The translations under genes were made by a program, and so were the position numbers. A stretch of 64,000 bases of DNA from Selaginella tamariscina (Eukaryota; Streptophyta; Lycopodiopsida; Selaginellales; Selaginellaceae): contig PUQB01000035.1 in the NCBI GenBank assembly GCA_003024785.1, forward strand, positions 372,001-436,000. Direction: 5' to 3'. The notes beneath the pieces were generated by a model that was given only the letters and a program-made list of their open reading frames with translations, did no database searches and had not been told where the DNA came from. Position 1 is the first letter of the stretch. Each line of letters starts with the position of its first letter. Positions 21,300 through 55,755 of the stretch are shown here, piece by piece.

Positions 21300-21399
21300 G
21301 CTTATTCCTTAAGCAGGTTTTACTTGATATTACGTTCAGGTTCATACATTTCAAAGTGGATAACATCAATATACGTTCAAGCTGCTCCTCTTCTTCAAC

Positions 21400-27957: not shown

Positions 27958-28582
27958 ATGTAAGTTGTAACTAAAATGGGCATGGCTATAGTATCATTTC
28001 ATAATAATTAACAATTTTAGCTATTTAATTAGCATTTTCTAATATTAAAGGAATATTCTTTAGAATATATATTTGAAAAGAGAAATATTCTTTAGCATAT
28101 TTTATTTTATAATCAACTCTTTAATAAATTATAGCATTCATTGAACAAAAATTAATAACATATAAAAGTAGAAGGTATTAAATTATAAAATATATTATAT
28201 TTAAGATTGTATGGGCCTAATATAAAAATTAATGAAGAGCATAAAAGGTACATTATATAAATATTGATGTTGTTATTAAAATATTAATATTTAAATATAA
28301 CATTATTAATTAAAAATGTGTACTAGTAATAATATATATAATATACAAAATCTTATAATAATATAGTCAATCTTCCATATCTTTTTATAAATTTATATAA
28401 TTAAATAAACAATTTGGTACTATTATTAAAGAGTTTATAATAATTATGAATATTAAATATATGATATTTTATAATTTTGTAATTGCTTTAAGCTTTAGAA
28501 AACATACATTTTTTTACAGTTTTGTTAATCGTGACTTTATCAACGCTTCTTGACATCCACCCATATTGAATGAATTTAACAT

Positions 28583-31393: not shown

Positions 31394-31529
31394 GCACATA
31401 AATAATTATGTTATTTATGATATTTGTTTATGAAATATTTTTAAGAAATCTGAACTGTGGTTGCTTAATAATATGCATGTGCAATAATACATAATTATGT
31501 ATAGGGATAATATCTGATGCTTGATTAAT

Positions 31530-32215
31530 ACAACTGATGGGCGGGATTAATCCCGCCCACGACTCCTTCCGATGAGGAAGAGGCGGTAGGATTAATCCCG
31601 CTGTTGGATCTTCCTTGTCGGCGAGAGGCGGCGGGATTAATCCTGCCGCGGACTCTCTCCGACGAGGAAGAGGTGGCGGGATTAATCCCGTCGCAACTCC
31701 CTCTGACGAGGAAGAGTCGATGGGATTAATCCTGCCGCAACACCCTTCCATGAGGAAGAGTCGGCGGGATTAATCCCGCTCACAACTCTCACGACGGGGA
31801 ATAGGTGGCGGGATTAATCCCGTTCACAACTCTCTTCGAAGCTATGATTTCAAAGAGATTTTGAGGAGGTGGCAGGATTAATCCCGCTAATGCTTTTCTG
31901 CGTCCGAAACTGATTGGCAGGATAAATCCTGCCCACAAATCTTGGTGGTGAGATTAATCCTGCCACCCCTTCTCTGCCTTCTAGAATGGTTGGCAGGATT
32001 AATTTCGCCGACAACTCTTTCTAATAAATTCAGGTAACTCTTTATTAGTTAAGAGAGTTATCGACGGGATTAATTCCGCCGCTCTTTTTTAGAGGCGGAG
32101 AAGCATTGCCCAGACTAATTCTACCATGGCTATTAAAGAGATGGTGGCGGGATTAATCCCGCCACCTCTTCTAATAAGTGAAAAAGAAATGGCCGGATTA
32201 ATCCCGCTGCCCGGC
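31530..32215. repeat. Palindrome array R2 (T-side type)
   Basis: About 15 copies of the 18-bp palindrome and variants at roughly 45-bp steps. Spacers are of the T-side family (ctcttcctcgtcggagggag and its reverse complement), different from those in R1, R3, R5 and R6. Some units carry paired changes that keep the dyad, such as GGCAGG...CCTGCC near 31,917. It lies just upstream of gene T, between it and the leader exon at 32,378. Confidence 0.9.
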
Positions 32216-32801
32216 TAACCGAGAATATTAAGTTAGAAGGATATTTAAACGAGATAAATCCCTAACGGAATATAATGTAATCCTAATGCATTCATAAACC
32301 CCTAGATTCTAATTTTAAGAGAGAATGTAAGAAAGTGAATCTTTACAAGTATATCTAAATTTATTTATAATACTTACTTGTAAACAGCACTGAAGGCGCC
32401 ATGCTTTCCTATAAACAATAACATCCAATTTAATATCGCTCCTAAGCTAATCACTATCAAGAAAAAAAAAAGATCTGAAAAGTGAAAATTACAAAAATGA
32501 AGAAACCTTTGCCAAAGGAAGAACCAGATCTGAATTTAAGTGGGAAATTAAATGCATTTTCAAATTTACATGTCAGACCGACAATACTTATGTCAGAAAT
32601 TCAAATTTTTTGAAAAGAACAGAAAATAAAATTTAAGATGAGTTGACACAAATAACCGACATTTTAACATATATACTCTCTAATTCCAATGAGTTTAATA
32701 AAATTACATTTAATATGATTCAAGTGATTTAAGTTGTTTAATATTATGAAATTCTAGTAATTATTCTACATTCTTAATATTCAAGTATATATTATTAAGT
32801 T

Positions 32802-32838
<37 letters not shown>

Positions 32839-33655
32839 CTTATACAATAAATAAATTGATATATTATTATGTATCATTTAAAATATATTCATAGTCTGTT
32901 TATTAATATTATTTTCTTAATTACTCGAGTAATTAATTTACATTTCCTACTATTAATGGGATATTCTTTATTATTTTCTTAATATTTGAAGAATATTTCA
33001 ATATTAAACCTGATTATCATAATTAAATTAATCTTATTCTTAATTATTTCAGTAATTATTCTACATTTATATATATTAATGGGATTTTCTCAATTAATTT
33101 CTTATTATTTCTAGAATATTCCTATGTTAAACCTTATTATCAATATTAAATTAATATATATTATTAAAACTATATATGACTATATATTAGATAAAATGAT
33201 ATATTATTATGTATAATTTAAAATATGTTCATAGTGTGTATATTAATATCATTTTCTTAATTACTTGAGTAATTAATCTTCTTTATATTAATGGGATATT
33301 CTTTATTATTTTCTTATTATTCCAAGAATATTCCAATATTAAACATGATTATCATAATTAATTTAGTTAATTATTTCAGTACTTGATCTACATTTGTATA
33401 TATTAATGAGATTTTCTCAATTAATTTCTTATTATTTCAAAAATATTCTAATGTTAAATCTTATTATCAATATTAAATTAATATATATTATTAAAACTAT
33501 ATATGGCTATATATTAGATAAAATCATATATTATTATGTATAATTTAAAATATATTCATAGTGTGTTTATTAATATTATTTTCTTAATTATTCGATGTTT
33601 GTTTTGCACACATATATAAACAAAATCATAAATTTATATATACATGTGCACACGC
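32216..33655. other. AT-rich T-side centre of E1 with leader exon and a 337-bp tandem repeat
   Basis: Counterpart of 41,840-42,900 (E2) and 59,190-60,540 (E3). It contains a conserved mini-exon at 32,378-32,408 on the minus strand (acceptor tttatag before, donor gtaagt after). Two adjacent units of about 337 bp start near 32,953 and 33,290 (attaatgggatattctttat). No ORF. The right edge is the E2 insertion point. Confidence 0.7.
32378..32408 (-). other. Putative leader mini-exon of gene T (E1)
   Basis: 31 bases bounded by an AG acceptor and a GTAAGT donor, conserved in E2 (42,730-42,760) and E3 (60,364-60,394). If read with the next G it would translate as GKHGAFSAVYK, which resembles the glycine-loop of a protein kinase, but only this short piece is present. 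Most simply it is the 5' untranslated exon of gene T, whose next acceptor is tgtgcag just before the start codon. Confidence 0.45.
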
Positions 33656-33659
33656 ATTA
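33656..33659. repeat. Left target-site duplication of E2 (ATTA)
   Basis: The flank reads cacacgcATTA here and ATTAgaagcac at 48,364. The uninterrupted site cgcattagaagc can be read (reverse strand) at about 41,822-41,836 inside E2 and as gcattagaagc near 59,190-59,205 in E3. That fixes both the insertion point and a 4-bp duplication. Confidence 0.85.
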
Positions 33660-33687
33660 ATACACGTTGTAATTAAAAGTGGGCATG
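33660..33687 (+). repeat. E2 left terminal inverted repeat
   Basis: Matches the reverse complement of 48,337-48,363 at about 23 of 27 positions, allowing one gap, with shared core gttgtaa-taaaa and tgggcatg. Also matches the E1 left end at 27,958-27,985. Confidence 0.85.
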
Positions 33688-34145
33688 ATACGTGAAAATG
33701 GGAATATAAAATAAATTACTAATTAATACTTAAGTTTTAATTATTAATTAATCATTTAATTAATATGTAATTAAGCCTTAAATATTAATTAATTAATTAA
33801 TTAATCCTTCAATAACCTTACTTAGTAAGGAATATTCCTAAAATATCTTAGAATATTCATATTATTCTAAAAATAGTTTACAATAATGAAGAAATACTAT
33901 CAAACATAATTACAAATGAAATCATTTTCTTATCAACATGTTAATTTTTTATAAATACTTTCTTTCCTAATCATACAAGAAATCTCCTCATTTTGTCTAA
34001 ATCATCACTCTCCGGATTAATCAAATCATTTTGGTCAATATCTTGATGTTGTTGCCACCACTAACACTCTCACGAATGCAATTGGGAGTTGCCATCCTTG
34101 TTAATACATAAGATGTAATAAGACCAGGTCTGCATAAAGGCTCAT

Positions 34146-35134
34146 CTAAAAATGACGTTCCTTAAGAATAATATTATAAAGCGCCCGGTTGCTATCCTTC
34201 ATTTTATAAAATTCAAAATCACGAGAAAGAAAAGCTTCAGGAAATGTATGATACGGTGGATACTGCTCACAAAAATTTTCGAGATTCTTCTTTCTGAGGC
34301 ACGTATCCAAGTAGTTCACTAGCTCATCCATGATATCGTATCAGAATATGGATCGAAAGTGATTGGATGAATACAAGCAATGTTTTGGTTGAGCATAGCC
34401 TTCTGAGGAGAGTCGTCTACTACTAAGATATGTGCATTCTTCATTATCCTTAAGCGACTGATCTCCCCATGAGTCCCAATTATTCTTTCATTCTTGAAGA
34501 AGTATGGCTTGCTTTCCTTTCTTATATTGTGAAATTCGAGAGGTTTATAACACATTCGCTGGTCAAAAATCCAATCTTTACGAATCACCTCTTCTGCAAC
34601 ACTACAATGTTTCTTAAGCAATTCAACAGCGGTGTTAAGTTATGAATCTGCATGCATGACCAAATCCCCACAAGCGCACCCATCTCCTTAAGCTTTTGAA
34701 AGAGACGATCCAACCCTGGACGAAAAATAATATCATATCGAAATTTACCATGACAAGGAATGAAATCTCCTTGTTTGATTTCTTTTTTTATCCTCGGGCC
34801 TTTGTCGATGAAGCAGAACACCATTGACATCCAACAACACAATATGGCCATGAGTAACATGAGATAGCGTTGCCTCTTGAATACTTTGCAAATCACTTGT
34901 TTGCTCCCTTTCACATTTATCCGTTGCCACTATCTCGTTGCCTATCCCTTCATCATTTAATTGTACATCATCCTTACAAGATTCAGATATTGCATGCGCT
35001 GAAGAAATTGATTTCGGAACTGAAGCCAATAAAAATGATGATGAAAAAACTGAAGTGGCCCCCATGGTAACGATGTTTTGAGCTGCATTATTATCCATTT
35101 CCTGCATGAACTCTGTCATTCTGACATGTGGCAC
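34146..35134 (-). pseudogene. FCP1/NIF-type HAD phosphatase-like gene (cargo of E2), frameshifted
   Basis: Three overlapping frames hold one HAD-superfamily protein of roughly 320 residues. An N-terminal low-similarity segment (contains SVFSSSFLLASVPKS) is followed by motif I HIVLLDVNGVLL, then FRYDIIFRPGLDRLFQKLKE, GALVGIWSCM (motif II region), and further on AHILVVDDSPQKAMLNQ (motif III/IV, DD) and HPITFDPYSD. This is the layout of FCP1-homology phosphatases (R-P-G-L then WSS, then DDS). Motif I is DVN rather than the usual DxD, so activity is doubtful even if the frames were whole. Frame changes occur near 34,800, 34,600 and 34,340. It lies 250 bases beyond the end of gene P, same strand. 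E1 and E3 are truncated before this point, so whether it belongs to the family core or is captured host cargo is unknown. Confidence 0.65.
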
Positions 35135-35380
35135 AAGAAATTGTCGCCAAACCCCTCTCTTACCTCATGCAATGCTGAAAATCCATGTTCTCAATTGTTT
35201 CATGCAAAATGATAATTAGCTGACCTTAAAATTATCAAGGTATATTATTTACCTTGTTAATGTGTGACCCATGTTTGAACTAAAAGCTTCATTAATCCTT
35301 GAGAATTTATTTTCTGTACAAATATAAACGAAATATACAAAAATGCCTTATGTTACACTCATTTACAACTATTCGTCACT

Positions 35381-38300
35381 CTAAAACTCATTAACAATTC
35401 TTCTTCGCTATTACCTTCTGAGTGAGGCGAAGAAGGTCTAAGCCGCTTGTGAGATGGTTCAAGATCTTCTCATCTTCTATTGATGTTTCCATGGGTAATG
35501 GAGTGTGCGAATGTTCTGTACTCCTCGAGATAACTTCCGGTCTAATATCTGATTGAAGTTCGTCTCAGACTCCGACATTGAACCAGATTCTTCAGAGCTA
35601 TCGCACTTATCGGAGGGAACTTTCTCAAATACTCCTTTATGGATTCGTTGGGGTATCAGTTGAGAACCTATCTATCCACTTGTTCAGGTCCTCAACCATG
35701 GTCTTATCCTTTTCAACGGCAAAACACATGTATGCCGAAGGTAACACTCCTTCAAGACGGACCCCCTAGTGCAGTAGTCAAAAACCCACGCATCACTGTG
35801 AGGACCCCTGATCAAGTTGACGATGCTCCGTGCCGCTTGACTTGTGATGTTTGGATAACGTACATTGCCGAATACGTCACTCTCACCTATCGGTGTATCG
35901 GATGGAGGTTCAGGGCCGTTGGAGTGCAAACAGATGCCTGGCCAGTCATTTGGAAGTTTGAAATGTTTGGCGCATTCCTAACAACCAAGTGAACAACCGA
36001 ATCAATGCACTTCGGATCAGCATCATTCATATAAAATCCTGTCCAACGATGTTTATTCCTCTTGGCAAAGGAGAAGGCAAAGGTATCGGTGACATGAGCA
36101 AGAATCAAGAAATAAATACCTGAAAACGTAGATATCAGTCAAGAGTGCAAGTATGAATTCAATAATAAATACCTTCTTTGTACATGCTTGCACGGCTAAG
36201 TTTCTCCACCAAATCCTCTAGTGTCTGTCTGTCGAAAGGATTTTTTGACACCCGCCGATCCATCACGAACAATTGAAACGGTTTCCTACAAGCAGTGATG
36301 GTACCCCATAAAGTCTCCGAATCCAACAACAAACATCTGTAGGGCTTGTCGTGATTCGTAGCATCCTCCTTTATAAGGTTCAACTCGGTTCTCCGCTGCT
36401 GAAGGACTGCCATAAGAGAAGGCGTCATCGCAATGTTCTCCTTTTTGGCGTTGGCGTGCAATAGATTCTTGCCAGATCTTAGATCTTCCGATTGATTCAC
36501 CCATTCGACAAGCATATCATCATTTGTCACATGCAAATATTTGCTGACCTCTTCGTATGTTGAAGCCGAAATCCAACCCAGTTTGTGGCAGTGTATTCCC
36601 AACCACTCCTTGAAGTGCCTGACCGTCTTCAACTCCATTGCCTTGAGATGAAAAGGAGAGGTGGGGCTGCTGTTGTTAATCTGTAATTTGCCATCAATCA
36701 CCAAATCAGCCAAGACTTCCATCTCCTCCATCGTTGTTCCATTTAAAGGCTTCAACCATGTGAGCTTGAAATCGTTGTCTACATCCTTTATAGATTGAAC
36801 AGACTTAGCCTTCGGCGTCTTACTGGGTTTCTTTGCAGACTTCTCTGAGGGCTCCACCTTCACTTGTCTGCTTCTTCTTCAGTGTTCCTTTTAGCAAAGG
36901 ATTCCATAATCCCCAACCATTTGGCAAAGATCCTATCCTCGGGACAAGAAATCAACATCATCAAAAAGGATGTTTCCTTCCCGCCCACCTGGGCAAAATC
37001 AACTGCTACAATTTCTTCAACTCTCTGAGAAAAAGACAGATTAATATACCGGCGAGATAAATCCCGCCCAAACAATTTGCTTACCCGGTAGTCCGCAGAT
37101 TGTGTATTCCCTGCGGTAGCTCTTTGTGGTCGCTGAAGAGATTCCCACACGGCTCGCGTGTGTTTGAACTTCTCCCATATTTTGCTGTTGTAGTGGTTGG
37201 TGTCTGCAGCGTCCCATTCCGCCGATAACTTATGGTACTGCTCGATTGTGAGATTCGGCTTCGCTAAAAACGCCGATCTTTTCGTCAGCTTCTCACGGGT
37301 ATGCTCGGAAAGTTTTGTTGCCATCGTTCCTTTGTTGTGTTCGTCGAGAAGTCGTTGGGCTGCCGTTATTGTGTGCTGGCCACTAATGATGTAGTACTTA
37401 ACTGATTTTCTATTCTCCGTCTGAACCTTCCTCATTTGTTCCGGTGTTGTGATCCACACTTTGCGCCTTTGTTTCTCTCGTAGTATGCGCACAAAACAGC
37501 ATTATGTGGAACGGTGTAAGAATTGTCGTCCTTCATCTTCTCCATGAGCTCAGCTACACGTTCCTGATTCAGTGGCCTGTAATTGAAGTTTGGGTTGACG
37601 CTGCAATACTTAACCCTACACTCGTAAATCCTATCATCCAACATCATTTCCTTGTGGCTTATTGCAGCATGGGACGCCACAGGTGCAGCTGACAAAACGA
37701 CTAATGATTTTCTTTACGATCCGAATCAACATGTGTGATCCCGATTGATGCTGTTCTAATGTTCTCGGCACACTCTTCCAGCTCCCGAAATTTGCTAAGC
37801 AAATTGAACGTGATCTGTAAAGAACCTGAGACCAAGCCACCCTCTCAATCTCCTTTATGATGTCGCTGTGTTCTTCTTCAATGTGAAGAGGGACGATTGC
37901 TCCACTTGTGGATTTTCTGTATTGTGAAGCAATATCTCCTGAGAATACACCTACTCGATGAGTCTGAAGATCTTCGAAGTAGACATCCAGTTGGATCCCC
38001 TCCATAGATGGGCTTTCGTTGAGTTGAAGAAGAACTCCACGGTCAACATCATTAGTGAACACGTGAACGTCATTATCCACAAGTCGACAAAACCACCCGA
38101 AATTAATGTTGTAACTGGCGACCTCTGGATCCGAGAACGTGACATTGGATGGAACAAGGCATATGTGTCGAGCATCGTTCAATCTGGGTTCACAGCATGC
38201 TTTCGGATGCTTGACTAGCACACCCACTTTCCATTGTTTTGCTTGTCCATGCGATGTGACAGAGGTTAGTTTGACAGCAACCATGGTTGTTCCAATGCGC

Positions 38301-38483
38301 TTCCCGTTTAGTTTGAAATATGGCCAAGTTGATTCCAGAATCCCCCTGCCCATCTCTTCTCCTGCTCTGTCTTTAATGTCACCTCAATTCCACATCTGAA
38401 TACAAAAATGATTAGTTCAAGCACATATCCGAGTATAACAGATTTTATTTTAATTCTTACCCAGAATTTGACGACGACTCCAT
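35381..38483 (-). pseudogene. Gene P of E2: ParB-like plus amino-methyltransferase-like protein
   Basis: Start at ATG 38,483 (MESSSN), with a short first intron. The N-terminal ~230 residues are unrecognised (GRGILESTWPYFKLNGKRIG; VFTNDVDRGVLLQLNESPS). A ParB/sulfiredoxin-like domain follows: VKYCSVNPNFNYRPLNQERV, AELMEKMKDDNSY, then YYIISGQHTITAAQRLLDE, which matches the ParB nucleotide-binding G-x-H-R..A motif region. After a 60-base intron (37,025-37,084) come a basic linker (SEKSAKKPSKTPKAKS) and a beta-class-like methyltransferase order: FQLFVMDRRVSKNPF (motif IV position, usually DPPY), IYFLILAHVTD, DSVVHLVVRN, then VFDYCTRGSVLKECYLR (FxGxG-like motif I). The tail is acidic/basic (KRLRPSSPHSEGNSEEE). 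Several indels split it into frames, so this copy is inactive. About 950 residues when whole. Confidence 0.75.
37025..37084 (-). other. Intron of gene P containing one copy of the array palindrome
   Basis: A 60-base GT-AG intron whose interior, 37,051-37,068, is a variant of the array unit (ggcgagataaatcccgcc). E2's partner gene in E1 keeps it at 52,730-52,747 (ggcagaatttatctcgcc). In E3 the segment is deleted. A single unit inside an intron of the element's own gene is not explained by array slippage. Confidence 0.7.
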
Positions 38484-38627
38484 ACTAATGACTCGATCTC
38501 CTTGTTTAATTAAATCGTCCTTCTGCAAAATAATACACTATGAATACAAATCATATAAAAACGCACACACACTTGTATAAACCCGAATATACAAAAATAA
38601 TACACAGAGAGAAGTGGACGGAATTAA

Positions 38628-38709
38628 CTGTCCAAAGCTCACCTTTGTGCTAGTGCAAAAGAAAGATAACATTTCGTTTTAAACCACCACAAATGTGAGC
38701 TCTGGACAG
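38628..38709. promoter_or_regulatory. 82-bp imperfect hairpin upstream of gene P (E2)
   Basis: Left stem ctgtccaaagctcacctttg at 38,628, right stem caaatgtgagctctggacag ending 38,709, with a loop of about 38 bases. It is present at the same place upstream of gene P in E1 (51,054-51,136) and E3 (55,756-55,838). Could be an operator-like structure or a very small inserted inverted-repeat element; no target duplication is clear. Confidence 0.7.
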
Positions 38710-38819
38710 TTTTACATAGTTTCCTAGCTTTTACTCGAAATATTATGATAAGATGATAAAAGTAAATAAAATGAGATATGCAACTTATATATACTAATAC
38801 ACATATATATTCACATGGA

Positions 38820-39720
38820 AGGTGCGGCGGGATTAATCTCGCCACCCCTTCAATGCCTCCTGAAAGAGTGGGCGGGATTAATCTCGCCACCTTTCTGGAG
38901 GCCTTGAACGGGAGTGCGGAATTAATCTTGCCACCCTTCTCGGTCTCAGAGAGAACTGGCAGGATTTATTTGGCACACCCCTTCAGTGACTCCAGAAAGG
39001 AGGCGGGATTAATCTCGCCCACCATGTAAGGGATGGTTAAATGAATTTCGCCACCCTTCCCAGTTCTCTCCATTGGTATGTTGTAAACCTTCTACGTCTC
39101 AGACAGAAACGTTTGGGATTGGTCCGACTCACCAATGAAGAAAAAGGAAGGGTGGCGGGATTCATTCCTCCAACAGGCATTGAAGGCTCGGCGGGATTAA
39201 TCCCGCCGAGGGCTTCACTCGGTCCCTATGCGCGGGATTAATCCCGCCGGACGCCAATTCCCTGCGAAATCGGGCGGGATTAATCCCGCCTAGGCCTTCA
39301 GGCAGGCCTTGGCGGCGGATTAACCGCCCAATTCGTGTAGGCAGCGGGATTAATCCCGCGGACGCCAATGCCCTGCGCGGAATCGGGCGGGATTAATCCC
39401 CCGCCTAGGCCCTTCAGGCAGGCCTTTGGCGGCGGGATTAATCCCGCCCGATTCCGTGCAGGGCAGCGGGATTAATCCCGCTGCCCAGGCCCTTTACTCG
39501 GGCCCTAGGCGGCGGGATTAATCCGCCGGACGCCAATGCCCTGCGCAGAATCGAGCGGGATTAATCCCGCCGCCTAAGCCCTTCAGGCAGGCCTTTGGCG
39601 GTGGGATAAATCCCGCCCGATTCTGCGTAGGGCATGCGTACGCGGCGGGATTAATCCCGCCGCTCATGAGGCTAACGGAATAGCTTGCCTAGAGCGGCGG
39701 GATTAATCCCGCCGCTACGC
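38820..39720. repeat. Palindrome array R3 (P-side type)
   Basis: About 20 palindrome units, evenly spaced at roughly 42-46 bp in the part from 39,190 to 39,715. Spacers are of the P-side family (gacgccaatgccctgcgcag, cttcaggcaggcctttggc). Lies about 340 bases upstream of the gene P start codon. Reading frames across it spell repeating AGLIPP/GGINPA peptides, which are only the palindrome translated. Confidence 0.9.
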
Positions 39721-40720
39721 ACATATATATTTATATATATGTATGTGTGTAGGAGAGTGCGTGTGTGTGCCAGAGATAGACAAATCAGATAAAATTATAC
39801 TGATACACAAATTATACACAAATTATACTGATACACAAATTGTGTGTATGCGTGTGTGAAATAAATAAAATCATACAGATAAACAAACAAATCAATAAAA
39901 TTATATATATATATGTGTGTGTGTATATATATATAGGAGTGTGCGTGTGTGTGCGAGAAATAGATAAATAAATAAAATTATACAGATACTGGTACACATA
40001 ATATATGTATGTATATATGTACATAGGTAATATATATGTGTGTATATGTATATCGTGTGTATGTGTCTGTGAAACAAATAAAATCATACAGATAAACAAA
40101 CACACACACATACATATATATACAGGAGTGTGCGTGTGTGTGCGATACATAGATAAATAAATAGAATTATACAAATACTGGTACACATAATATATGTATG
40201 TATATTATATGTATATAGGTTATATATATGTGTGTGTGTGTGTGTGTATGTATATCGTGAGTATGCGTGTGTGAGCGAAACAAATAAAATCATACAGATA
40301 AACAGGAGTGTGCGTGCATGTGCAAGAGATAAAATTAATAAATTAATAAAATTATACAGATACACAAACACAAACACAAACACACACAGATATATATATA
40401 TATCTGTGTGTGTATATGTATACAAGTGTGCGTGTGTGTGCGAGAGATAGAGATCTATAGAGAAGAGAGAGAGAGAAGGATATATATATATATATATGTG
40501 TGTGTCACACAGATATATATATATCTGTGTGTGTGTATTATATATTATGTGTGTGTGTGTGTGTGTATATGTATACGAGTGTGCGTGTGTGCGAGAGATA
40601 GAGATCTAAATTATATTATTAAGATACACACACATATAAATATATAAATAAATAAATAAACTCAGAGGAGTGTGCGTGTGAGAGAGAGAGAGAGATCTCA
40701 CATGTGTGTGAGAGAGAAGG
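39721..40720. repeat. TG/CA-TA microsatellite with higher-order repeat (E2)
   Basis: Repeats of a unit of about 150-190 bases made of (TG)n, (TA)n and the blocks gagtgtgcgtgtgtgtgcga and atactggtacacataatata, ending with (GAGA)n near 40,690. Same position as in E0, E1 and E3. Open frames here are low-complexity artefacts. Confidence 0.85.
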
Positions 40721-40925
40721 AGATTTCACCGCTGCCGCCGCCGCCTTACAAACCCTAGGAATATACTTAAACCCTAAAAGGAATAGAATATATATTAACC
40801 CTAATCGAATATTCCTTCTAAGAATATATAAACTAGTGATTCGCCCTAAACGAATATTCTTTCATTATATTATCAGCGTGTGCGTGTGCGTGGGTGTATC
40901 ACATACACCCCAAGAATAAATATCA
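40721..40925. promoter_or_regulatory. GCC-rich and telo-box region at the element centre
   Basis: A (GCC)n stretch (40,729-40,743) is followed by several telo-box-like motifs (aaaccctagg, aaaccctaaa, taaccctaat, gccctaaacg) between 40,748 and 40,852. Conserved in E3 (58,160-58,330) and in reverse in E1 (49,680-49,850). Telo boxes (AAACCCTA) are known plant promoter motifs, and this block lies between the two divergent genes, so a promoter role is plausible. Confidence 0.45.
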
Positions 40926-41840
40926 TGCAGGGGTTAACACGTGTGTGTCCATGAGAGTGTTAAAGTTTCACGTGCAGCGATACATATATACACACATAGT
41001 ATTATATATATAGACATACATACATATTAATACATATTAATATTAGAGAGACAGAGTACAGGATCATGTATGGTGTGTATGTATGAGAGAAGAGTGACAA
41101 TACATATTATGGATCATGCATGGTGTGTATGTTTGAGAGAAGAGAGACAGTACATATTTACATGGATCATGCATGGTGTGTATGTATGAGAGAAGAGTGA
41201 GAGTGTTAACAAATTAAATTTATACACATTGGATATATTAGTACACACATATACATACACACGTGTATACACACAGACATACATACATATTACATGTGTA
41301 AATTCAATGTGTTACATAGGGTTTAGGGTTTAGGGTTAGGGTTAGGATGGATCATGCATGGTGTTTATGTATGAGAGGAGTGAGTGTTATACACAGATAT
41401 ACATTATACATATTACATAATATTGTAACATCAGTACATATTATGGATCATGCATGGTGTGTATGTATGAGAGAAGAGACAGGCTACATATTATGGATCA
41501 TGATCATGCATGGTGTGTATGTATGAGAGAAGGGATTATGCATGGTGACATTGTGTATGTATGAGAGAAGAGATAGAGTGTTAACAAATGAAAATCGTAC
41601 ACATTGATATATTATATTAGTACACATATTACATACACACATGTATACACACAGACATACATATATATTACATGTGTAAATTCAATGTGTTACATACACA
41701 CACTGAGTACATATAGATCATACATGCGTTGAACATGATGTTTTTCAATAAAGAAGCAACATATAATTTCTCAAGTTTGGTTTAGGGCAATGTGCATGTG
41801 TGTGCATATGTGTCTCTGTAAGTGCTTCTAATGCGTGTGC
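40926..41840. repeat. Dispersed ggatcatgcatggtgtgtat repeats with a telomere-like tract (E2)
   Basis: Five to seven copies of a unit of about 50-60 bases (atggatcatgcatggtgtgt, atgtatgagagaagag) mixed with AC/TA runs. At 41,318-41,347 there are four TTTAGGG-type telomere repeats, two of them six-base TTAGGG. Matching tracts: 49,182-49,220 (E1, reversed, best preserved) and weaker in E3 near 58,905. The flanks are element sequence, so this is an internal tract and not a chromosome end. Confidence 0.8.
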
Positions 41841-42914
41841 ACATGTATATATAAATTTATGATTGTGTTTATATATAATATGTGCAAAACAAACATCGAA
41901 TAATTAAGAAAATAATATTAATATACACACTATGAACATATTTTAAATTATACATAATAATATATGATTTTATCTAATATATAGCCATATATAATTTTAA
42001 TAATATATATTAATTTAATATTGATAATAAGGTTACACTAGAAATATTCTTGAAATAATAACAAATTAATTGAGAAAATCCCATTAATATATACGAATAA
42101 TTACTGAGATAATTAATAATAAGAACTAATTTAATTATGATAATCAGGTTTAATATTGGAATATTCTTCGAATATTAAGAAAATAATAAAGAATATCCCA
42201 TTAATAGTAGGAAATGTAAATTAATTACTCGAGTAATTAAGAAATAAATATAATAAACAGACTATGAATAATTTTAAATGATACATAATAATATATCAAT
42301 TTATTTATTGTATTAGTGTATATATATATAATATTAAAACTTAATAATATATACTTGAATATTAAGAATGTAGAATAATTACAAAAATTTCGTAATATTA
42401 AACAACTTGAAGCACTTGAATGACATTAAATGCAATTTTAAAACACTCATTGGAATTGGAGAGTATATATGTCAGACTGTCGGTTATTTGTTTCAAGTCA
42501 TCTTAAATTTCTTTTCTGTTATTTCAAAAATTTCGAATTTCTGACATAAGTATTGTCGGTCTGACATGTAAATTTGAAAATGCATTTAATTTCCCACTCA
42601 AATTCAGATCTGGTTCTTTCTCCGGCAAGGGTTTCTTTATTTCTTTATTTTTCACTCTTCAGATTTTCTTTTTTCTTCTTAGTGATCAGCTCAGGAGCGA
42701 CATTAAATTGGGTGCGCTATTGTTTATAGGAAAGCACGGCACCTTCAGTGCTGTTTACAAGTAAGTATTATAAACAAATTTAAATATATTATAAAGATTC
42801 ACTCTCTTACATTCTCTATTAAATTTTAGAATTTAGGGATTTAGGAATGCATTAGGATTACAATATATTCTGTTAGGGATTTATCCCGTTTAAATATACT
42901 TTTAACTTAATATT
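41841..42914. other. AT-rich T-side centre of E2 with leader mini-exon
   Basis: Matches 32,230-33,650 in reverse and 59,190-60,540 directly. Includes the conserved acgacatgta-like patch and the mini-exon 42,730-42,760 (AG before, GTAAGT after). The inferred intron runs from 42,761 to the tgtgcag acceptor at 43,921, enclosing array R4. No ORF. Confidence 0.6.
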
Positions 42915-43775
42915 CTCGTTAGCCGGGGCGGCGGGATTAATTCGGCCATTTTTTTTCGCCTCTTCGAAGAGGTGGCGGGATTAATCCCGCCACCATCTCT
43001 TTGATAGCTATGACAAAATTAGTCCGGGCAATGCTTCTCTGCTTTTTAAGAAGAGCGGCGGGATTTCCCGCCGATAACTCTCTCAACTGATAAAGAGATA
43101 CTTGAATTTATTGAAAAGAGTTATCTACGGGATTAATCTTGCCATTCATTTTAGGAGGCAGAGAAGTGTGGCGGGATTAATCTCGCCATCACATTCCTTT
43201 TTTAAATATTTGTGGGCAGGATTCATCCCGAATTTCTTTAAAATCATAATTTCGGAGAGAATTGTGGGCGGGATTAATCCCGCCGCTTATTCCCTGTCGT
43301 CAGAGTTGTGGGCGGGATTAATCCCGCCGCCTATTCTCCTTCGTCAGTGTTGTGGGCGGGATTAATCCTGCCCCCTCTTCCTCGTCAGAGGGATTTGCGG
43401 CGGGATTAATCCCGCCACCGATTCCCTCCTACGAGGAAGAAGCAGCGAGATTAATCCCGTCGGTACTTCCTCGTCGGAGGGAGTCCGCGGCGGGATTAAT
43501 CCCACCGCAAATCCCTCCGACGAGGAAGAGGGGGCGGGATTAATCCCGCCGATTCTTCCTCGCGGGAGGGAATCGGCGGCGGGATTAATCCCGCCTCCGA
43601 TTCCCAAGGGGAAGAGTCGACGACGGGATTAATCCTGTCGACGATTCCCTCCTGCGAGGAAGAATCGGCGGGATTAATCCGCCGACGATTCCCTCCCGCG
43701 AGGAAGAATCGGCGGGATTAATCCCGCCCATCGTTCCTCGTCGGATGGAGTCGTGGGCGGGATTAATCCCGCCCA
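42915..43775. repeat. Palindrome array R4 (T-side type)
   Basis: Eighteen units counted, with centres near 42,929, 42,973, 43,129, 43,170, 43,268, 43,311, 43,357, 43,400 and on to 43,757: a period of about 43-47 bp. Spacers are themselves near-palindromic (cttcctcgtcggagggag against ctccctccgacgaggaag), so the whole array is a chain of dyads. Lies immediately upstream of gene T and inside its inferred leader intron. Confidence 0.9.
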
Positions 43776-43927
43776 TCAGTTGTATTAATAAAGCATGAGA
43801 TATTATCTTTATACATAATTATGTATTATTGCACATGCATATTATTAAGCAACCGCAGTTATGATTTCTTAGAAATATTGCATAAATATATATCATAAAT
43901 AACACAATTATTTATGTGCAGGACAAT

Positions 43928-46900
43928 ATGTATAATACTGGAGATAAAATATGTCTTTTCGGAACAACGAGATAGTTGGCACTGGAACTGTGGAAGTTCG
44001 AGATGATAATGCATCATGTCACAATATGCCCAAGGATCTTGTGTGTACGTATAGGTGAACACCATTTTCAAGCATGTTGAGGTTCCGGGAATGGAATTTG
44101 AGGAGGGTTCTCCTGTATTGTGGAATTTAGATGAAGTCAAGGCTGACATAGAATATACAGAGTCACAAACAAACAGTAGCACGAGTTTTTTAGATGATGG
44201 CTTGCCTGCTGTGATGGATGAGGTGATTCTCTTTCTTCATGAGATTGAGGTTGGGAGAGGCATCATCACAGCTATAAATCCAATGGAAGCAGTGTTAGAA
44301 GAGAAACTAGGTCCGACTTCGTGGGTGTAGTTGTGACAGAGGTTTCACCTAATGGCACTTTGCATCCTGGATCCCTCGTGAGGTGGCGAACATCTGAATT
44401 AAGACGGGAAGATGGTTCAACATATTCTAGGTTGAATTTCAATAATAACAACCCGGAAGAACAACTCATATTTGAAGAGGTTCCTTGCATTGGTCCTATT
44501 GTAAGAAAAAAGCGATTCATGGTTGCAGATCTTCCCTTGCAAGTTTCAGCAAGAGGGTTAAGATGGATCCTACATCTTCCGAAAGTGTTATGAGCATTTC
44601 CATGATTGACTGCTGCAAAAAGAAGTGTTGTTAGATGGCAGATCGGAATGAAATTACCCAATGTAGACATGTCTTTCGTACGCTCACTCAAAAGCAAAGG
44701 CATGAGTTTGTATATGCAGCACTAACTGGGTGTATTGATGGAATGACCTCAGACACATGTTATTAGAGTACATCCATGGTATTTAATAAGGTGGCCGTCT
44801 GCTTCAAAGCTTGATACAGTATATATGGGATCCCAAAGACCACGTTCTACCGTCGGAGGGATGAGTGGCTAGATGGAGCGCGAACCTCAGTACATGGGAA
44901 CACTCGCTTGGTCAAAACCTGCTCTCACATTATGGCAGCCATAGAGATACTCAAGGTTTTGTGGAAGCAAATGCAGACAGGATGCCTCACAAATGCCGAA
45001 CCACAAATGCAGGGATCAGGGAAAATCTCAAGGTTTTGCCTTCAATCTACACTCAATTGAAGCTGTGTGAACATGTGAACAAGTGCCTCAATTTGATGGG
45101 TCTGCAAGCAATCTGCACTGGTACCTTCAACAACATATGGAAATACTCATTTTAAGGATGTGGAGATTGCAAAACACTCTAGCTTTTCCAAGTGTGACAC
45201 TTGTACATCATTGAAGGCTGCAGAGGCTTGTGCAAAAACCTTAGTGAAGATCACTACCATTCAAAAGAAGATGGAGGCCCACATGATTGCACAACAAACT
45301 TGCCGGTCTCAGTACTATGCACACCGCATGCTTTTTGTGTCACGCCCATCAGAGTACCTGTGCTTGATCCATGACAAGATGGATCATTCAAAGACCAGCA
45401 TTCCAAAGCTCGTTACAACACCAAAGTGCCTTGGAAATGTCATGAAACTTCCGATTTCATTGACATGTGTGCTAACACATGGACACGGTTGTGAGTCATA
45501 TGGACACTTTTCACTTCCACATTGGTCTAGTGACTCGAATTTCACTATTGGGTCGTTGGCCATGTGTTTCAGAAACCTTGAAGCCCACTCACAGACACGT
45601 CCATCAGTGATCTCAAAGTGAAGAAAACAACATCTTCAACCTTTACATAATGCTTTCATGAACACGTTTGCACTGAGGCTACTTGGGAATATGAGAGGCA
45701 TTGTCAGCAGCCTGCATAAAAACAGATGGCCCTGTTGAGAGTTCAGGTTCAGTGGAGGGATCTAGCTCAAATAGTGTACATGTGTCCTCAACATCAAATA
45801 GCTTCCTGTCATTTGCTTTTACAGATGGATAATTGTGCATGCGAGAACAAAAATAAGTAAATCATTTTACTTAAAGGTTTCTCAAGCTCATACTTACTTT
45901 TATTATTTTCTAGATATGTGCTAGCATACTTGTCAATGCTTTGCCAAAGGTGTGTTTGAGACATAGTTACGAACACGAACACGGAACACTTACACGAGCC
46001 TCAAATTTCAGGAACCCGGCCACGGAACACAATCACGGCTCACGATGGCTCACAAATATTCTAGTGAATATTAATGAATATTCTAGTGAAATTCTAGCTC
46101 TCACACGATCACTTTTATATTAACCATAATAAAATAAACCTTAATTAATTAATAAATTAAAACTCAAAGAAATAATATGCATTTAAAGAAACATCATACA
46201 TGCCAAATTATGTAACATTAACCTTAAAAATGTGTTTTTGATCATATACAAGCTGGTTGCCAAAACCTCTCTTATAATATGCCGCATTCTTCAAAAAAAA
46301 AAATATAAAAAAAATAAAATAAATCATATACGTGTCTAGCTATATAAGAATATAATATTTGGATATGTTATACATATTATCTAAAACTCACATTTTACAT
46401 GTTGTAGTTTAAATTTTATATAAATATATATATGTGTGTGTGTGTTTATAAGTATTCTCATACATATATATGCAAATGTACATGATTATATATACAAAAT
46501 ACCACTATCGCAAAGAAGGATGCTTCACAGTGTTGGATTGTTGCGCCATGCTTGTTGTGCCTTGGATTGCTGTGTGATGCCGTGCGCCCTAGAAAGAATA
46601 TTCCATAAGTATATTCAGCCAAGAATATTCTAAACAGTGTTTCATGTTATGAACACGTGCCGTGATCCCGGCGTGGTCGCCGGATCACGGCCCGTGTTCG
46701 TAACATGAAACACTGTTCACGTAGGAACACGAATCATGGCCGTGTTCGTGAAACACGATGAACATGGCCGGGATCCCGGCCGTGTTCGTAACTATGGTTT
46801 GAGACAATCACGCTCAGTTTTCTTATGGTTGGTCACACTCATGAAGATATTGATGCGTCTTCAGCAAGGTCTCCAACTCTACAAAAAGACAAGTGCACTT

Positions 46901-47768
46901 ACTTTACCGCATATGATGAATCTTTTTGAAAACTGCATCTCCAAAAAAGTTGTGCTTGCTTGTGACTGAGGTGCCAGACTTCAAAAAATTTCTCAAGGAT
47001 ATATCAAAGAGGGGAGTGATTCTTTATTGGTCACTTTGCCGCTATAATTCTTTTTCTCTATACAAGATGGTATACCTATTATGCAGTACAAGTTACGGCC
47101 ATCAGAGCATGAGTGGTTACAAAAGAGGGGTTAATGCTCTTCAAAAGTGGAGAGAATGGAAAGCCACTTCTCCCAGAAGGACAACCAGAACCTATTCCAT
47201 TAAGTGCCCTAGCTCAAGAACAAGAGTTATTATTGATGACATCAAAAAAATATGTGGCATGGTTCAAAAATCGATGCCAAAGAATTCTGATAAGGCAACT
47301 GTTACTCAGAACTATATAAGCATGTGATTGACTATTGGGAGACTGTTGTTCGAGAGTTGGAAGGGCCTATTGTCACAAGTACAGAATTGCAACACCCTTT
47401 TTGGCCTAAAACAAGGTGGCGAGAGGAGATTGAAATGACATCACTGAGCACAGGACGAATAGAAGCCAGTAGTGATGTGGAAGTGCAAACCCCACATTTG
47501 TTGAACAAAGGAACCAAAACTTAAAGCATACTTTGATTGCTGCCAGATTTCAAAAACTAATGATGGTTCTCATTACTCAGATGCGTCATATAATCAGCCT
47601 ATTTGGGGTCAAATTATCGACACACCTGAAGTAATCAAAAAAATAGTTGTTAAGGTTGCATGGTTCAAACAACAAAAAAGGCGACATGAGAAGGAGAGCG
47701 AAAGATATAATGGATGCCTAGAGAAAAACATGGTCTCCCAATCAAAAAGACCCAGCATGTTTTTATAA
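43928..47768 (+). pseudogene. Gene T of E2: DUF7869-type transposase-like, broken and interrupted
   Basis: Start ATG at 43,928 follows the acceptor tgtgcag. The N-terminus (YNTGDKICL; EIVGTGTVEVRDDNASCHN) resembles the Tnp1/En/Spm-like or DUF8039 module of plant transposon proteins. Then follow DEVILFLHEIEVGRG, GVVVTEVSPNGTLHPGSL, the CCKKKCC cluster, DEWLDGARTSVHGNTRLV, FSKCDTCTSLKAAEAC, IHDKMDHSKTSIPKL (first acidic position), HGHGCESYGHFSLPHW, DNCACENKN, an intron, then THEDIDA and a C-terminal region ending AYFDCCQISKTNDGSHYSDA...KRPSMFL at 47,768. An 834-bp Mutator-like insertion splits it at 45,963 and several indels shift the frame, for example within the THEDID stretch. DNCAGEN is altered to DNCACEN. 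Confidence 0.8.
45963..46796. mobile_element. Non-autonomous Mutator-like element inserted in gene T of E2
   Basis: Terminal inverted repeats atagttacgaacacg at 45,963 and, reverse complemented, ending about 46,795. Flanked by the 9-bp duplication gtttgagac (45,954-45,962 and 46,797-46,805), the Mutator-type length. The uninterrupted site is seen in E3 (ggtgtgtttgaaacaatcac near 63,383). Subterminal regions are rich in cgtgttcg/cgaacacg repeats and contain gatcccgg palindromes near 46,660-46,790. The interior is AT-rich with no transposase, so it depends on a partner elsewhere. Confidence 0.88.
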
Positions 47769-48363
47769 ATGTTAAATCCATTCGATATGGGTAGATGTCA
47801 AGAAGCGTTGATAAAGTCACGATTAACAAAACTGCAAGGGAATGTATGTTTTCTGAAGCTTAAAGCAATTACAAAATTATAAAATATCATATATTTAATA
47901 TTCATAATTATTTTATAAACTCTTTAATAATAGTACAAACTGTTTACTTAACTATATAAATTTAAAAAATGATATGGAAGATTGACTATATTATATATAG
48001 GATTTATATATATATTATTACTACTACAAATTTTAATTAATAATGTTATATTTAAATATAATATTTAATAACAACATTAATTTATATAATGTACCTCTTA
48101 GCTCTTCCTTAATTGTTATATTAGGCAATATATTATATAATTAATACCTTCTACTTTTATAATGTTATTAATTTTGTTCAATGAATGCTATAATTTATTA
48201 AAGGGTCGAATACAAAATAGAATATTCTAAAGAATATTCTGTTTTCAAACATATATTCTAAAGAATATTCCTTTAATATTAGAAAATGCTAATTAAATAG
48301 CTAAAATTGCTAATTATTAAGAAATGGGACTATAGCCATGCCCATTTTAGTTACAACATGCAT
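47769..48363. other. 3' flank of gene T and right end of E2
   Basis: AT-rich non-coding DNA matching 27,958-28,582 in reverse, up to the terminal repeat at 48,337-48,363. It contains several gaatattc-type short palindromes. No gene. Confidence 0.7.
48337..48363 (-). repeat. E2 right terminal inverted repeat
   Basis: catgcccattttagttacaa and the following catgcat, reverse complement of the left end at 33,660. Followed directly by ATTA (48,364-48,367), then the resumed E1 sequence gaagcacttacagagacaca. Confidence 0.85.
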
Positions 48364-48367
48364 ATTA

Positions 48368-49858: not shown

Positions 49859-50044
49859 CTCACACATAGGTGAGATCTCTCTCTCTCACATGCACACTCA
49901 TGTGTTTATTTATTTATTTTTATTCACATATACATTTATATGTGTGTGTATCTTAATAATAAAATTGATTTATCTATCTCTCGCACACACACGCACACTC
50001 CTATACATATATAGATACATATATATATATATATGTGGCCAAAG
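49859..50044. repeat. Shortened microsatellite of E1
   Basis: Only about 190 bases of (CT)n, (CA)n and (TA)n remain here, against about 1 kb at the same place in E2 and E3. Contraction by slippage is the simplest explanation. Confidence 0.8.
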
Positions 50045-50972: not shown

Positions 50973-51053
50973 TCATGTGAATATATATGTGTATTAGTAT
51001 ATATAAGTTGCATATCTCATTTTATTACTTCTATCATTTTATCATATGTGAAA

Positions 51054-51136: not shown

Positions 51137-51310
51137 TTAATCCCGTTCACTTCTCTCTGAGACAAAGCAGGGTGTATGTGAATTTATCAGTGTATTATTT
51201 TTGTATATTCGGGTTTATACAAGTGTGTGTGCTTTTTATATGATTTGTATTCATAATGTATTATTGTGTAAAAGGACGATTTGATCAAACAAGGAGATTC
51301 AGTCATTAGT

Positions 51311-53551
51311 ATGGAGTCGTCGTCAAATTTTGGGTAAGAATTATAATAAAATCTGTTATACTCGGATATGTGCTTGAAGAACTAATCATTTTTGTATTCA
51401 AATGTGAAATTAAGGTGACATTGAAGACGAGAGTAGGAGAAGAGATGGGCAGGGGGATTCTGGAATTAACTTGGCCATATTTCAAAATAAACGTGAAGCG
51501 CATTGGAGCAACCATGGTTGCTGTCAAATTAACCTTTGTCACATTGCATGGACAAGCAAAACAATGGAAAGTAGATTTATTAGTCAAACACCCGAAAGTA
51601 GTTTGCGAACCAAATTGGACGATGCTCGACACGTATGCCTTGTTCCATGCAATGTCACGTTCTTGAATCCAAAGGTCACCAGTTACAACATTAATCTCGG
51701 GTGGTCTTGTCGACTTATGGATAATGATGTTCACGTGTTCACTAATGATGTTGACCGTGGAGTTCTTCTTCAACTCAACGAAAGCCCATCTATGGAGGGG
51801 ATCCAATTAAATGTCTACTTCGAAGATCTTCAGACTCATCGAGTAGGTGTATTATCAGTAGAGATTGCTTCACAATATAGAACATCCACAAGTGGAGGAA
51901 TTGTCCCTCTTCACATTGAAGAAGAACACAGCGACATCATTAGTGAGATTGAGAGGGTGGCTCGGTCCCAGGTTCTTTATAGATCATGTTCAATTTGCTT
52001 AGGAATTTTCAGAAACTAGAAGAGTGTTGAGAACATTAGAATAGCTGCAGTCAAGGATCACACATGTTGATTTGGATCGTAAAAGAAAATCATTAATCAT
52101 TTTGTTAGCTGGACTTGTGGCATCCCATGCGGCAATAAGCCACAAGAAAATGATGTTGGATGATAGGATTTATGGGTGTAGGGTTAAATATTGCAGCGTC
52201 AACCCAAACTTCAATTACAGGCCACTTAACCAGGAACGTGTAGCTGAGCTCATGGAGAAGATGAAGGACGATAATTCTTACACCGTTCCACATAATGTTG
52301 TTTTGTGCCCATACTACGAAAGAAAGAAAGGCGCTAAAAAAGTGTGGGTGACAACACCAGAACAAATCACAAAGATTCAGACGGAGAATAGAAAATCAAT
52401 CAAGTATTACATTTAATGGCCAACACACAATAACGGCAGCTCAATGACTTCTCGATGAATACAACAAAGGAATGATGGCAACAAAACTTTTTGAGCATAC
52501 CCATGAGAAGCTGACAAAAAGATCGGCGTTTTAAACTAAGCTAAATCTCACAATTGAGCAGTATCATATGTTATCGACGGAATGGGACGCTGCCGACACC
52601 AACCACTATAATAGCAAAATATGGAGAAGTTCAAACACACGCGATCTGTGTGGGAACATCTTGGGCGACCACAAAGAGCTACTGCAGGGAATACACAATG
52701 TGCGATGTACTGGGTAAGTAGATTGTTTGGGCAGAATTTATCTCGCCGGTATATTAATCTGTCTCTTTATTTCAGATAGTTGAAGAAATTGTAGCAGTTG
52801 ATTTTGCCCAAGTGGGCAAGAAGAAAATATCCTTTTTAATGATGTTAATTTCTTGCCCCGAGGATAAGATCTTTGCCAAATGGTTGAGGATTATGGAATC
52901 CTTTGCAAAAGGAACACTAAAGAAGAAACAGATAAGTGAAGGGGAGCCCTCAGAGAAGTCTGCAAAGAAACCCAGTAAAACGCCGAAAGCTAAGTCTGTT
53001 CAATCTACAAAGGATGTAGACAATAATTTCAAGCTTACATGGTTGAAGCCTTTAAATGGAACAACGATGGAGAAGATGGAAGTCTTGGCTGATTTGGTGA
53101 TTGATGGCAAACTACAGATTAACAACAGCAACCCCACCTCTCCTTTTCATGTTAAGGCAATGGAGTTAAAGACGGTCAGGCACTTCAAGGAGTGGTTGGG
53201 AACACACTGCCACAAACTGAGTTGGACCTCGGCCTCAACATACGAAGAGGTCAGCAAATATTTGCATGTAATCTATTGCATGCCAATGCCAAAAAGGAGA
53301 ACATTGTGATGACGCCTTCTCTTATGGTAGTCCTTCAGTAGTGGAGAACCGAGTTTAACCTTATAAAGGAGGATGCTACGAATCACGACAAGCCCTACAG
53401 ATGTTTGTTGCTAGATTCAGAGACTTTATGGGGTAACATCATTGCTTGTAGGAAACTGTTTCAATTGTTCGTGATGGATTGGTGGGTGTCAAGAAATCCT
53501 TCGACAGATAAGACACTAGAGGATTTGGTGGAGAAACTTAGCCATGCAAGC
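51311..53551 (+). pseudogene. Gene P of E1, truncated in the methyltransferase part
   Basis: Exon 1 ATG at 51,311 (MESSSNFG), donor gtaagaat at 51,334. Exon 2 gives GRGILELTWPYFKINVKRIG, then QTHRVGVLSVEIASQYRTS in another frame, the ParB-like part (VNPNFNYRPLNQERVAEL; ENRKSIKYYI then a stop where E2 has ISGQHTI), an intron with the palindrome variant, PSEKSAKKPSKTPKAKS, and FVMDWWVSRNPSTDKTLEDL at the motif-IV position. It stops at the junction with E3 at about 53,551, so motif I is missing. About 60 bases present in E2 around the ND..LVEW segment are absent, and E3 shares that exact deletion. Confidence 0.75.
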
Positions 53552-55581
53552 ATATCCTCTAGTGTCCTATTTGTTGAAGGATTTTTTGATACCTGCCGAT
53601 CCATCACGAACAATTGAAACGGTTTCCTACAAGCAGTGATGTTACCCCATAAAGTCTCCGAATCCAACAACAAACATCTGTAGGGCTTGTCGAGATTCGT
53701 AGCATCCACCATAAGAGAAGGCGTCATCGCAATGTTCTCCTTTTTGGCATTGGCGTGCAATAGATTACATGCAAATATTTGCTGACCTCTTCGTATGTTG
53801 AAGCCGAAGTCCAACCCAGTTTGTGGCAATGTATTCCCAACCACTCCTTGAAGTGCCTGACCGTCTTTAACTCCATTGCCTTAACATGAAAAGGAGAGGT
53901 GGGGTTGCTGTTGTTAATCTATAGTTTGTCATCAATCACCAAATCAGCCAAGACTTCCATCTTCTCAATCGTTGTTCCATTTAAAGGCTTCAACCATGTA
54001 AGCTTGAAATTATTGTCTACATCCTTTGTAGATTGAATAGACTTAGCTTTCGGCGTTTTACTGGGTTTCTTTGCAAACTTCTCTGAGGGCTCCTCTTCAC
54101 TTGTCTGTTTCTTCTTTAGTGTTCCTTTTGCAAATGATTCCATAATCCTCAACCATTTGGCAAAGATCTTATCCTCGGGGCAAGAAATTAACATCATTAA
54201 AAAGGATATTTTCTTCCTGCCCACCTGGGCAAAATCAACTGCTACAATTTCTTCAACTATCTGAAATAAATCGCGTGTGTTTTGCTATTGTAGTGGTTGG
54301 TGTCGACAGCGTCCCATTTCGTTGATAACTTATGGTACTGCTCAATTGTGAGATTCAGCTTAGCTAAAAATGCCAATCTTTTTGTTAGCTTGCTCGGAAA
54401 GTTTTGTTGCCATCGTTTCTTTGTTGTATTCATCGAGAAGTCACTGGGTTGTCGTTATTGTGTGTTGGCCATTAATGATATAGTACTTGATTGATTTTTT
54501 ATTTTTTGTCTGAATCTTCGTGATTTGTTTTGATGTTGTCACCCACACTTTCTCAGCGCCTTTCTTTCTTTCGTAGTATGGGCACAAAACCACATTATGT
54601 GGAACGGTGTAAGAATTATCGTCCTTTATCTTCTCCATGAGCTCAGCTACACGTTCCTGGTTAAGTGGCATGTAATTGAAGTTTGGGTTGATGCTGTAAT
54701 ACTTAACCCTACACTCATAAATCTTATCATCCAACATCATTTCCTTGTGGCTTATTGCCGCATGGGATGCCACAAGTGCAGCTGACAAAACGATTAATGA
54801 TTTTTTCTACGATCCAAATCAACATGTGTGATCCTCGACTGCAGCTATTCTAATGTTCTCCACACACTCTTCTAGTTTCCGAAAATTCCTAAGCAAATTG
54901 AACGTGATCTATAAAGAACCTGGGACCGAGCCACCCTCTTAATCTCACTAATGATGTCGCTGTGTTCTTCTTCAATGTGAAGAGGGACGATTGCTCCACT
55001 TGTGGATGTTCTGTATTGTGAAGCAATCTCTACTGAGAATACACCTACTCGATGAGTCTGAAGATCTTCGAAGTAAACATTTAATTGGATCCCCTCCATA
55101 GATGGGCTTTCGTTGAGTTGAAGAAGAATTCCACGGTCAACATCATTAGTGAACACGTGAACATCATTATCCACAAGTCGACAAGACCACCTGAGATTAA
55201 TGTCGTAACTGGTGACCTTTGGATTCGAGAATGTGACATTGCATGGAACAAGGTATACGTGTCGAGCATCGTCCAATCTGGGTTCGCAAACTACTTTTGG
55301 GTGCTTGACTAATAAATCTACTTTCCATTGTTTTGCTTGTCCATGCAATGTGATAGAGGTTAAGTTGACAGCAACCATGGTTGCTCCAATGCGCTTCTTG
55401 TTTATTTTAAAGTATGGCCAAGTTGATTCCAGAATCCCCTTTCCCATCTCTTCTCTTGCTTTCGTCTTCAATGTCACCTCAATTCCACATTTGAATACAA
55501 AAATGATTAATTCTTCAAGCACATATCCGAGTATAACAGATTTTATTATAATTCTTACCCAGAATTTGACAACAATTCCAT
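53552..55581 (-). pseudogene. Gene P of E3, truncated; best-preserved N-terminal half
   Basis: Start at about 55,581 (MELLSNSG; splice to CGIEVTLKTKAREE). One open frame, 54,872-55,522, covers most of the N-terminal domain (GKGILESTWPYFKINKKRIG, DVHVFTNDVDRGILLQLNES, YFEDLQTHRVGVFSVEIASQ). The ParB-like part (INPNFNYMPLNQERVAELME; YYIINGQHTITTTQ) is open at 54,441-54,788. The next segment has a deletion that includes the palindrome intron, then ISFLMMLISCPEDKIFAKWL and FVMDRQVSKNPSTNRTLED before the junction. The change between the N-terminal frame and the ParB frame near 54,800-54,870 occurs in all copies, so an intron there is possible. Confidence 0.75.
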
Positions 55582-55755
55582 ACTAATGACTGAATGTCCT
55601 TGTTTGATCAAATTGTTCTTCTGCACAATAATACATTATGAATACAAATCATATAAAAACGCACATACACTTGTATAAACCCGAATATACAAAATAATAC
55701 ACTGATAAATTCACATACACCTTGCTTTGTCTCAGAGAGAAGTGAACGAGATTAA

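Follow-up and report, generated by a model that had tools for sequence, protein, structure and literature searches.

A transposon gene with ParB-like and methyltransferase-like parts and adjoining palindrome arrays in Selaginella tamariscina

The window, that is, the whole stretch of 64,000 nucleotides of Selaginella tamariscina DNA analysed here, contains a large transposon that we call element X. Its ends were located by alignments: it is 14,704 bp long (33660..48363) and is nested in another copy of the same family. A target duplication, ATTA, borders it on the left (33656..33659) and on the right (48364..48367), and its inverted terminal repeats are imperfect, one at the P-side end (33660..33695, plus strand) and the other at the transposase-side end (48330..48363, minus strand), the inner limits of both being approximate. 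The unfilled target of element X is preserved in a third copy near 59197. An older copy of the element, split by the insertion of element X, occupies ~27960-33659 and 48364-53600. Full copies align along 14.4-14.9 kb, and in most copies the ends start with ATGCAAGTTGTAACTAAAATGGGCATGG and ATGCACGTTGTAACTAAAGTGGGCATGA. When both element ends were set at ATGC, 4-bp duplications (AAAC, ATAT, CTAT and TACA) could be read by eye in all four other copies with both ends seen; with element X included, a 4-bp target duplication is present in five of five such insertions.

The transposase gene region (43800..47407, plus strand, approximate limits drawn from ORFs and alignment) is of the DUF7869 type and diverges from the gene that we call P. 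The DUF7869 matches were found on homologous copies of the element; in the copy on contig C1100, one ORF, of 618 aa, stayed under the cut-off (E 3.3e-5) and another clearly exceeded it (E 1.7e-24). A literature search on DUF7869 found no paper. Downstream of gene P, on the minus strand, lies a NIF/FCP1-type HAD phosphatase-like gene (34319..35164) that is broken here: the joined reading matched the NIF/FCP1 family with an E value of 2.5e-10, and the single window ORF gave 0.13. It occupies two overlapping frames in the copies on C529 and C704, and it reads DVNGV at the usual catalytic motif.

Gene P itself had been described in a first-pass annotation as joining a ParB-like domain to a permuted DNA amino-methyltransferase-like domain. 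All the strings quoted in its favour were found on the minus strand of the window, namely NPNFNYRPLNQERVAEL (~37599) and SGQHTITAAQ (~37381) at the box I and box II positions of the ParB-like region, FVMD, as part of FVMDRRV (~36269), at the motif-IV-like position and VFDYCTRGSVLKE (~35788) at the motif-I-like position. The upper end given for the gene, 38483, is exactly the start codon (ATG) of our gene model. Alignment to the C1100 copy resolved the copy in element X (copy A) into four exons on the minus strand. Exon 1 (38461..38483) is followed by exon 2 (37085..38395), which is frameshifted and carries the N-terminal and ParB-like parts, the ParB-like region with its two boxes lying at 37228..37650 (residues ~258-400). 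Exon 3 (36173..37024) contains the linker and the motif-IV-like half with FVMDRRV, and exon 4 (35385..36119, lower end approximate) the motif-I-like half, with the landmarks WVFDYCTRGSV at ~35788 and the acidic VEKD at ~35713. Several small frameshifts and three inferred introns put the pieces of copy A in different frames, and thus the window alone shows no single open gene. Copy A as a working gene is ruled out by its frameshifts. Copy B (~51300..53620, plus strand) and copy C (~53460..55600, minus strand), whose limits are approximate, are without the motif-I part, and all three copies in the window are broken.

The genome (300.7 Mb, G000) was then searched with the ParB region of gene P as the query. 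Among 4848 first-look candidates, 150 matches were scored; they were 94-95% identical, and none of the 150 matched segments contained an internal stop. Thirty loci were fetched, and five with a 478-aa exon-2 frame were chosen and taken with 20 kb around each. Three GT-AG intron positions are common to all five copies examined in full. One of these (G000:C1100:89852-92957) reads uninterrupted for 976 aa over four exons, with splicing deduced from the frames; the other products were of 889 aa (two copies) and 808 aa (two copies). Judged again from the frames, the splice sites preserve the reading frame, so the ParB-like and methyltransferase-like parts appear to belong to one gene and not to two separate ones. 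The gene noticed in the first-pass annotation is real, and the plan given for it there is plausible.

Gene P shows signs of protein-level constraint. Comparison of copy A with the C1100 reading over 961 codons gave a dN of 0.034, a dS of 0.122 and a dN/dS of 0.28. By part, the ratio was 0.34 for the N-terminal part, 0.15 for the ParB part, 0.10 for the linker, and 0.63 and 0.42 for halves 1 and 2 of the methyltransferase part, the tail showing 0 synonymous changes. For copies B and C, with 10 and 5 in-frame stop codons excluded, the ratio was 0.45 and 0.40; over their short overlaps with methyltransferase half 1 (30 and 35 codons) it came to 0.12 and 0.24. Few changes underlie these ratios, which are also pushed up by neutral drift once a copy has inserted, so that the methyltransferase part need not be less constrained than the rest, though it may be.

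Between gene P and the transposase gene lie arrays of GCGGGATTAATCCCGC, a perfect 16-bp palindrome, which are new in this analysis. Each of four elements carries 37-39 sites (<=2 mismatches), nearly all of them between the two genes; the window contains 92 such sites, 30 of them exact, and five shuffled windows contained 0 each. In element X, one array of 15 sites (<=2 mismatches) lies upstream of gene P (38827..39712) and another of 14 sites (<=2 mismatches) upstream of the transposase gene (42931..43772). Further arrays upstream of the P and transposase genes of the window copies are found at 50048-50965, 56014-56896, 60610-61213 and 31541-32207, and one at 131-730 belongs to an element copy cut by the window end. 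Of the sites in the C1100 element, 13 precede the transposase ORF, 25 lie upstream of P and 1 is in a P intron; by hand count, 28 of the 36 neighbouring gaps within its two arrays measure 39-51 bp. ParB of bacteria loads at palindromic parS sites, and the GCGGGATTAATCCCGC array is, by analogy, a candidate binding array for the ParB-like protein. Alternatively, the arrays could stem from tandem duplication of the minisatellite kind or could be bound by the transposase or by a host factor.

We then considered how far the ParB-like part resembles known ParB proteins. In the Pfam and NCBIfam searches no curated family model reached its cut-off with P, PF02195 (ParB N-terminal) included; strictly taken, this outcome counts against the proposed ParB and methyltransferase assignments. 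An annotated phage fusion (L043) likewise misses PF02195. PHROGs returned one ParB-like partition family over residues 33-122 of a 152-aa piece with an E value of 0.096, similar to the stray matches of P to unrelated families (E 0.04-0.16). Searching the plant's own genome with PF02195 gave no match, the same model matching in 11 of 14 control genomes. No relatives of P were found by word-based searches of 5.8 billion proteins, by tblastn in phages with the frameshifted reading, or in viral contigs or PDB sequences. As P had no sequence relatives in these searches, we turned to profiles made from 12 phage fusions of ParB and methyltransferase, of which one carried that annotation and the others were taken by similarity to it or by PF02195, and from 7 lone methyltransferases; the reference loci L049 and L050 were left out of the profile work.

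Against the ParB profile, residues 240-420 of P gave a local score of 20.4, which was reached by 1 of 200 shuffles, in an alignment of 15 columns in which the two box II segments coincide. The global score was reached by none of 200 shuffles, with box I unaligned; for two control comparisons the counts were 86 and 95 of 200. The hhalign probabilities for the ParB comparison were 3.7% and 1.4% only. P lacks the arginine that is conserved in the box II P motif and reads GQHT there; the arginine is missing too from the phage fusion L052, which matches PF02195 below cut-off and whose GNHTLMAA resembles the GQHTITAA of P, with the same HT form of box II. Residues ~258-400 of P are a modestly supported, putative ParB-like domain.

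For the methyltransferase-like part, PF01555 (N6_N4_Mtase) did not match P, and [DNS]PP[YFWH] occurs nowhere in the 976-aa protein; DPPY is present in 12 of the 12 phage fusions used. Among 37 tblastn stretches (the 30 loci plus the window), from copies that are near-identical and not independent, the motif-IV position read DRR in 29, DWW in one and DRQ in one, the remaining six being without the block. DRRV as damage of the window copy only is ruled out by these 29 near-identical stretches. Of 54 stretches, 29 read VFDYCTRGSV at motif I and 25 are pieces without the block; the glycine loop of this motif is altered. By eye, the order HP-like, VFD, VEKD fits the motif-I end of beta-class enzymes; the sole match of the whole of P to the fusion profile is the motif-I block (residues 841-881, E 0.18). 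A scan of all 976 residues with the motif-I block, using 16 of 19 templates, gave a best placement at most 3 residues from the predicted motif, the left block being 3 residues off and the loop differing from the template; the score was reached by 8 of 500 shuffles and by 0 of 82 P1 six-frame ORFs.

In the remaining profile comparisons, the score of the motif-I half was reached by 3 of 200 shuffles globally and by 27 of 200 locally; for the methyltransferase region compared locally, 36 of 200 scored as high with the methyltransferase profile and 18 of 200 with the fusion profile. The motif-IV half showed no signal in the local comparison (91 of 200 shuffles as high), the global alignment of the whole methyltransferase region failed (167 of 200), and the hhalign probabilities were below 1%. 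The likeness to a methyltransferase is weak and comes from the motif-I end, and the descent of residues ~661-905 from a permuted amino-methyltransferase of beta-class order is a weakly supported possibility. The ParB-like part and the order in which a IV-like motif precedes a I-like motif, both pointed out in the first-pass annotation, hold as resemblances, with modest statistics for the former and weak ones for the methyltransferase. The DNA-modification step that it also suggested is unsupported, given DRR instead of [DNS]PP[YFW] in 29 of 37 stretches and the altered glycine loop. In the bdelloid N4CMT enzyme, as described in the part of PMC8885841 consulted, changing SPPY to APPA abolishes activity; with its own catalytic tetrad replaced by DRRV, P is expected not to methylate, and we infer that its methyltransferase part has probably lost this activity.

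A gene of this kind in a nuclear transposon of a eukaryote might seem unusual, as was first thought, but a precedent exists in a brown alga. Dinatale et al. (2025; PMC12477816, sections consulted) describe in Ectocarpus a gene for a 1104-aa protein, ParB plus N4/N6-methyltransferase, on the strand opposite the transposase in the 21.5-kb element Sola1-1_Ec32, and green and red algal cases of such genes are cited there. As similar genes are reported from algae, P is a striking variant and not a first; among the literature matches listed, with partial coverage and few subscription journals, no land-plant ParB-methyltransferase transposon gene was recognised. Compared by description, P shares with the Ectocarpus gene its ParB-like and methyltransferase-like parts, its place in a giant DNA transposon (14.7 kb here, 21.5 kb there) and its position on the strand opposite the transposase, for a product of 976 aa against 1104. 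As points of difference, P is without the canonical catalytic motif, and its element has a phosphatase-like gene and palindrome arrays of which the sections of PMC12477816 consulted make no mention. Sola elements, which produce 4-bp duplications, have been reported from a moss, Physcomitrella patens (PMC10741241 and PMC9033089, consulted in part). Element X has in common with this superfamily its 4-bp target duplications, large size and inverted ends; its transposase, however, was identified as DUF7869 only, and the Sola likeness is one of build and duplications.

The ParB-CTPase fold was surveyed in 2025 (PMC12704722, parts consulted); that survey reports N6_N4 methyltransferase fusions in phages and gives sulfiredoxin as the commonest eukaryotic form. 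Phage fusions such as those of Morganella phage Mecenats66 (L043) and Mycobacterium prophage prophiT49-1 (L052) resemble P by eye in their ParB boxes, motif IV, HP..KP block, motif I and acidic residue, and L052 also in the HT form of box II. However, the 12 fusions used are 404-460 aa long and carry DPPY, whereas P has long N-terminal and linker parts and DRRV, and no sequence match between them and P was detectable. Since several of the defining features tested were lacking, we did not place P in the ParB_N or N6_N4_Mtase families. With bacterial ParB-parS, the P element shares a ParB-like protein beside a repeated 16-bp palindrome, but the palindrome is a different one, no ParA was noticed and the canonical arginine of box II is absent.

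The analysis shows a four-exon, 976-aa gene model with signs of constraint at the protein level, located in a transposon with 4-bp duplications and palindrome arrays and divergent from a DUF7869 transposase gene. The reading we favour, with a probability of roughly 0.45, is that P is a clamp-like self-recognition accessory protein of a Sola-like giant transposon and carries a degenerate methyltransferase domain. P would bind the arrays of the 16-bp palindrome that lie between the gene encoding it and that of the transposase, as ParB does at parS; once bound, it could mark the element as self, and it could control the two promoters of the element or shield them from silencing. The methyltransferase-like part might then serve as a structural, SAM-sensing or DNA-holding module. 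That the transposon possesses a ParB/parS-like system of its own, in which a dead-methyltransferase ParB on ~38 spaced palindromes marks self and controls expression or silencing, is a bolder proposal that we hold to be rather improbable as it stands.

The ParB and methyltransferase resemblances could instead be due to chance, P being an unrelated DNA-binding accessory protein comparable to TnpA of CACTA elements. TnpA-type proteins of CACTA elements bind repeats, and the many palindromes of the P element would offer possible binding sites; no family match above cut-off was obtained and the methyltransferase statistics are weak. We gave this explanation more weight, and the favoured one somewhat less, because the motif-IV half is without profile signal, and it nevertheless appears unlikely to us: only 0-1 of 200 shuffles matched the ParB score, which was obtained with the correct box in register, the best motif-I placement sits where the order predicts, and a gene of the same plan is published from a similar element (PMC12477816, in the sections consulted).

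Less probable still is that P is an active DNA amino-methyltransferase that marks the transposon carrying it, a role suggested for the protein of Ectocarpus, with DRRV as a divergent working catalytic loop or with the true motif IV elsewhere. The constraint on gene P, the motif-I-like block followed by an acidic residue and the gene plan shared with the published ParB plus N4/N6-methyltransferase gene (PMC12477816, sections consulted) would suit an enzyme, but there is no [DNS]PP[YFWH] anywhere in the 976 aa, the glycine loop is altered, and replacement of Ser and Tyr of SPPY by Ala abolishes the activity of the bdelloid enzyme (PMC8885841, part consulted). Finally, a captured passenger with no role in the element would account for the many broken copies (A, B and C in the window; four of the five full copies shortened), but is very improbable given a dN/dS of 0.28 overall and of 0.10-0.15 in the linker and ParB parts, and the existence of a similarly planned gene in an alga (PMC12477816, sections consulted).

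If P does act as a clamp on the palindrome arrays, a DNA clamp of the bacterial segregation type would have become the self-recognition device of a multicopy eukaryotic transposon, and at least one lineage would be able to do without the modification step that has been proposed for proteins of this kind. The element occurs in many copies, one gene copy is uninterrupted and the candidate sites are defined, which makes the clamp idea directly testable in vitro.

Three further features of the window were recorded. A tail-to-tail junction of two element copies at 52766-54270 forms an inverted repeat within gene P. Another pair of inverted repeats, 3.5 kb long and 93% identical, lies at 4791-8290 and 21301-24706. 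Long TA/CA-rich microsatellite-like tracts, recognised from the translations, occur in element copies at 39812-40647 and 56887-58198.
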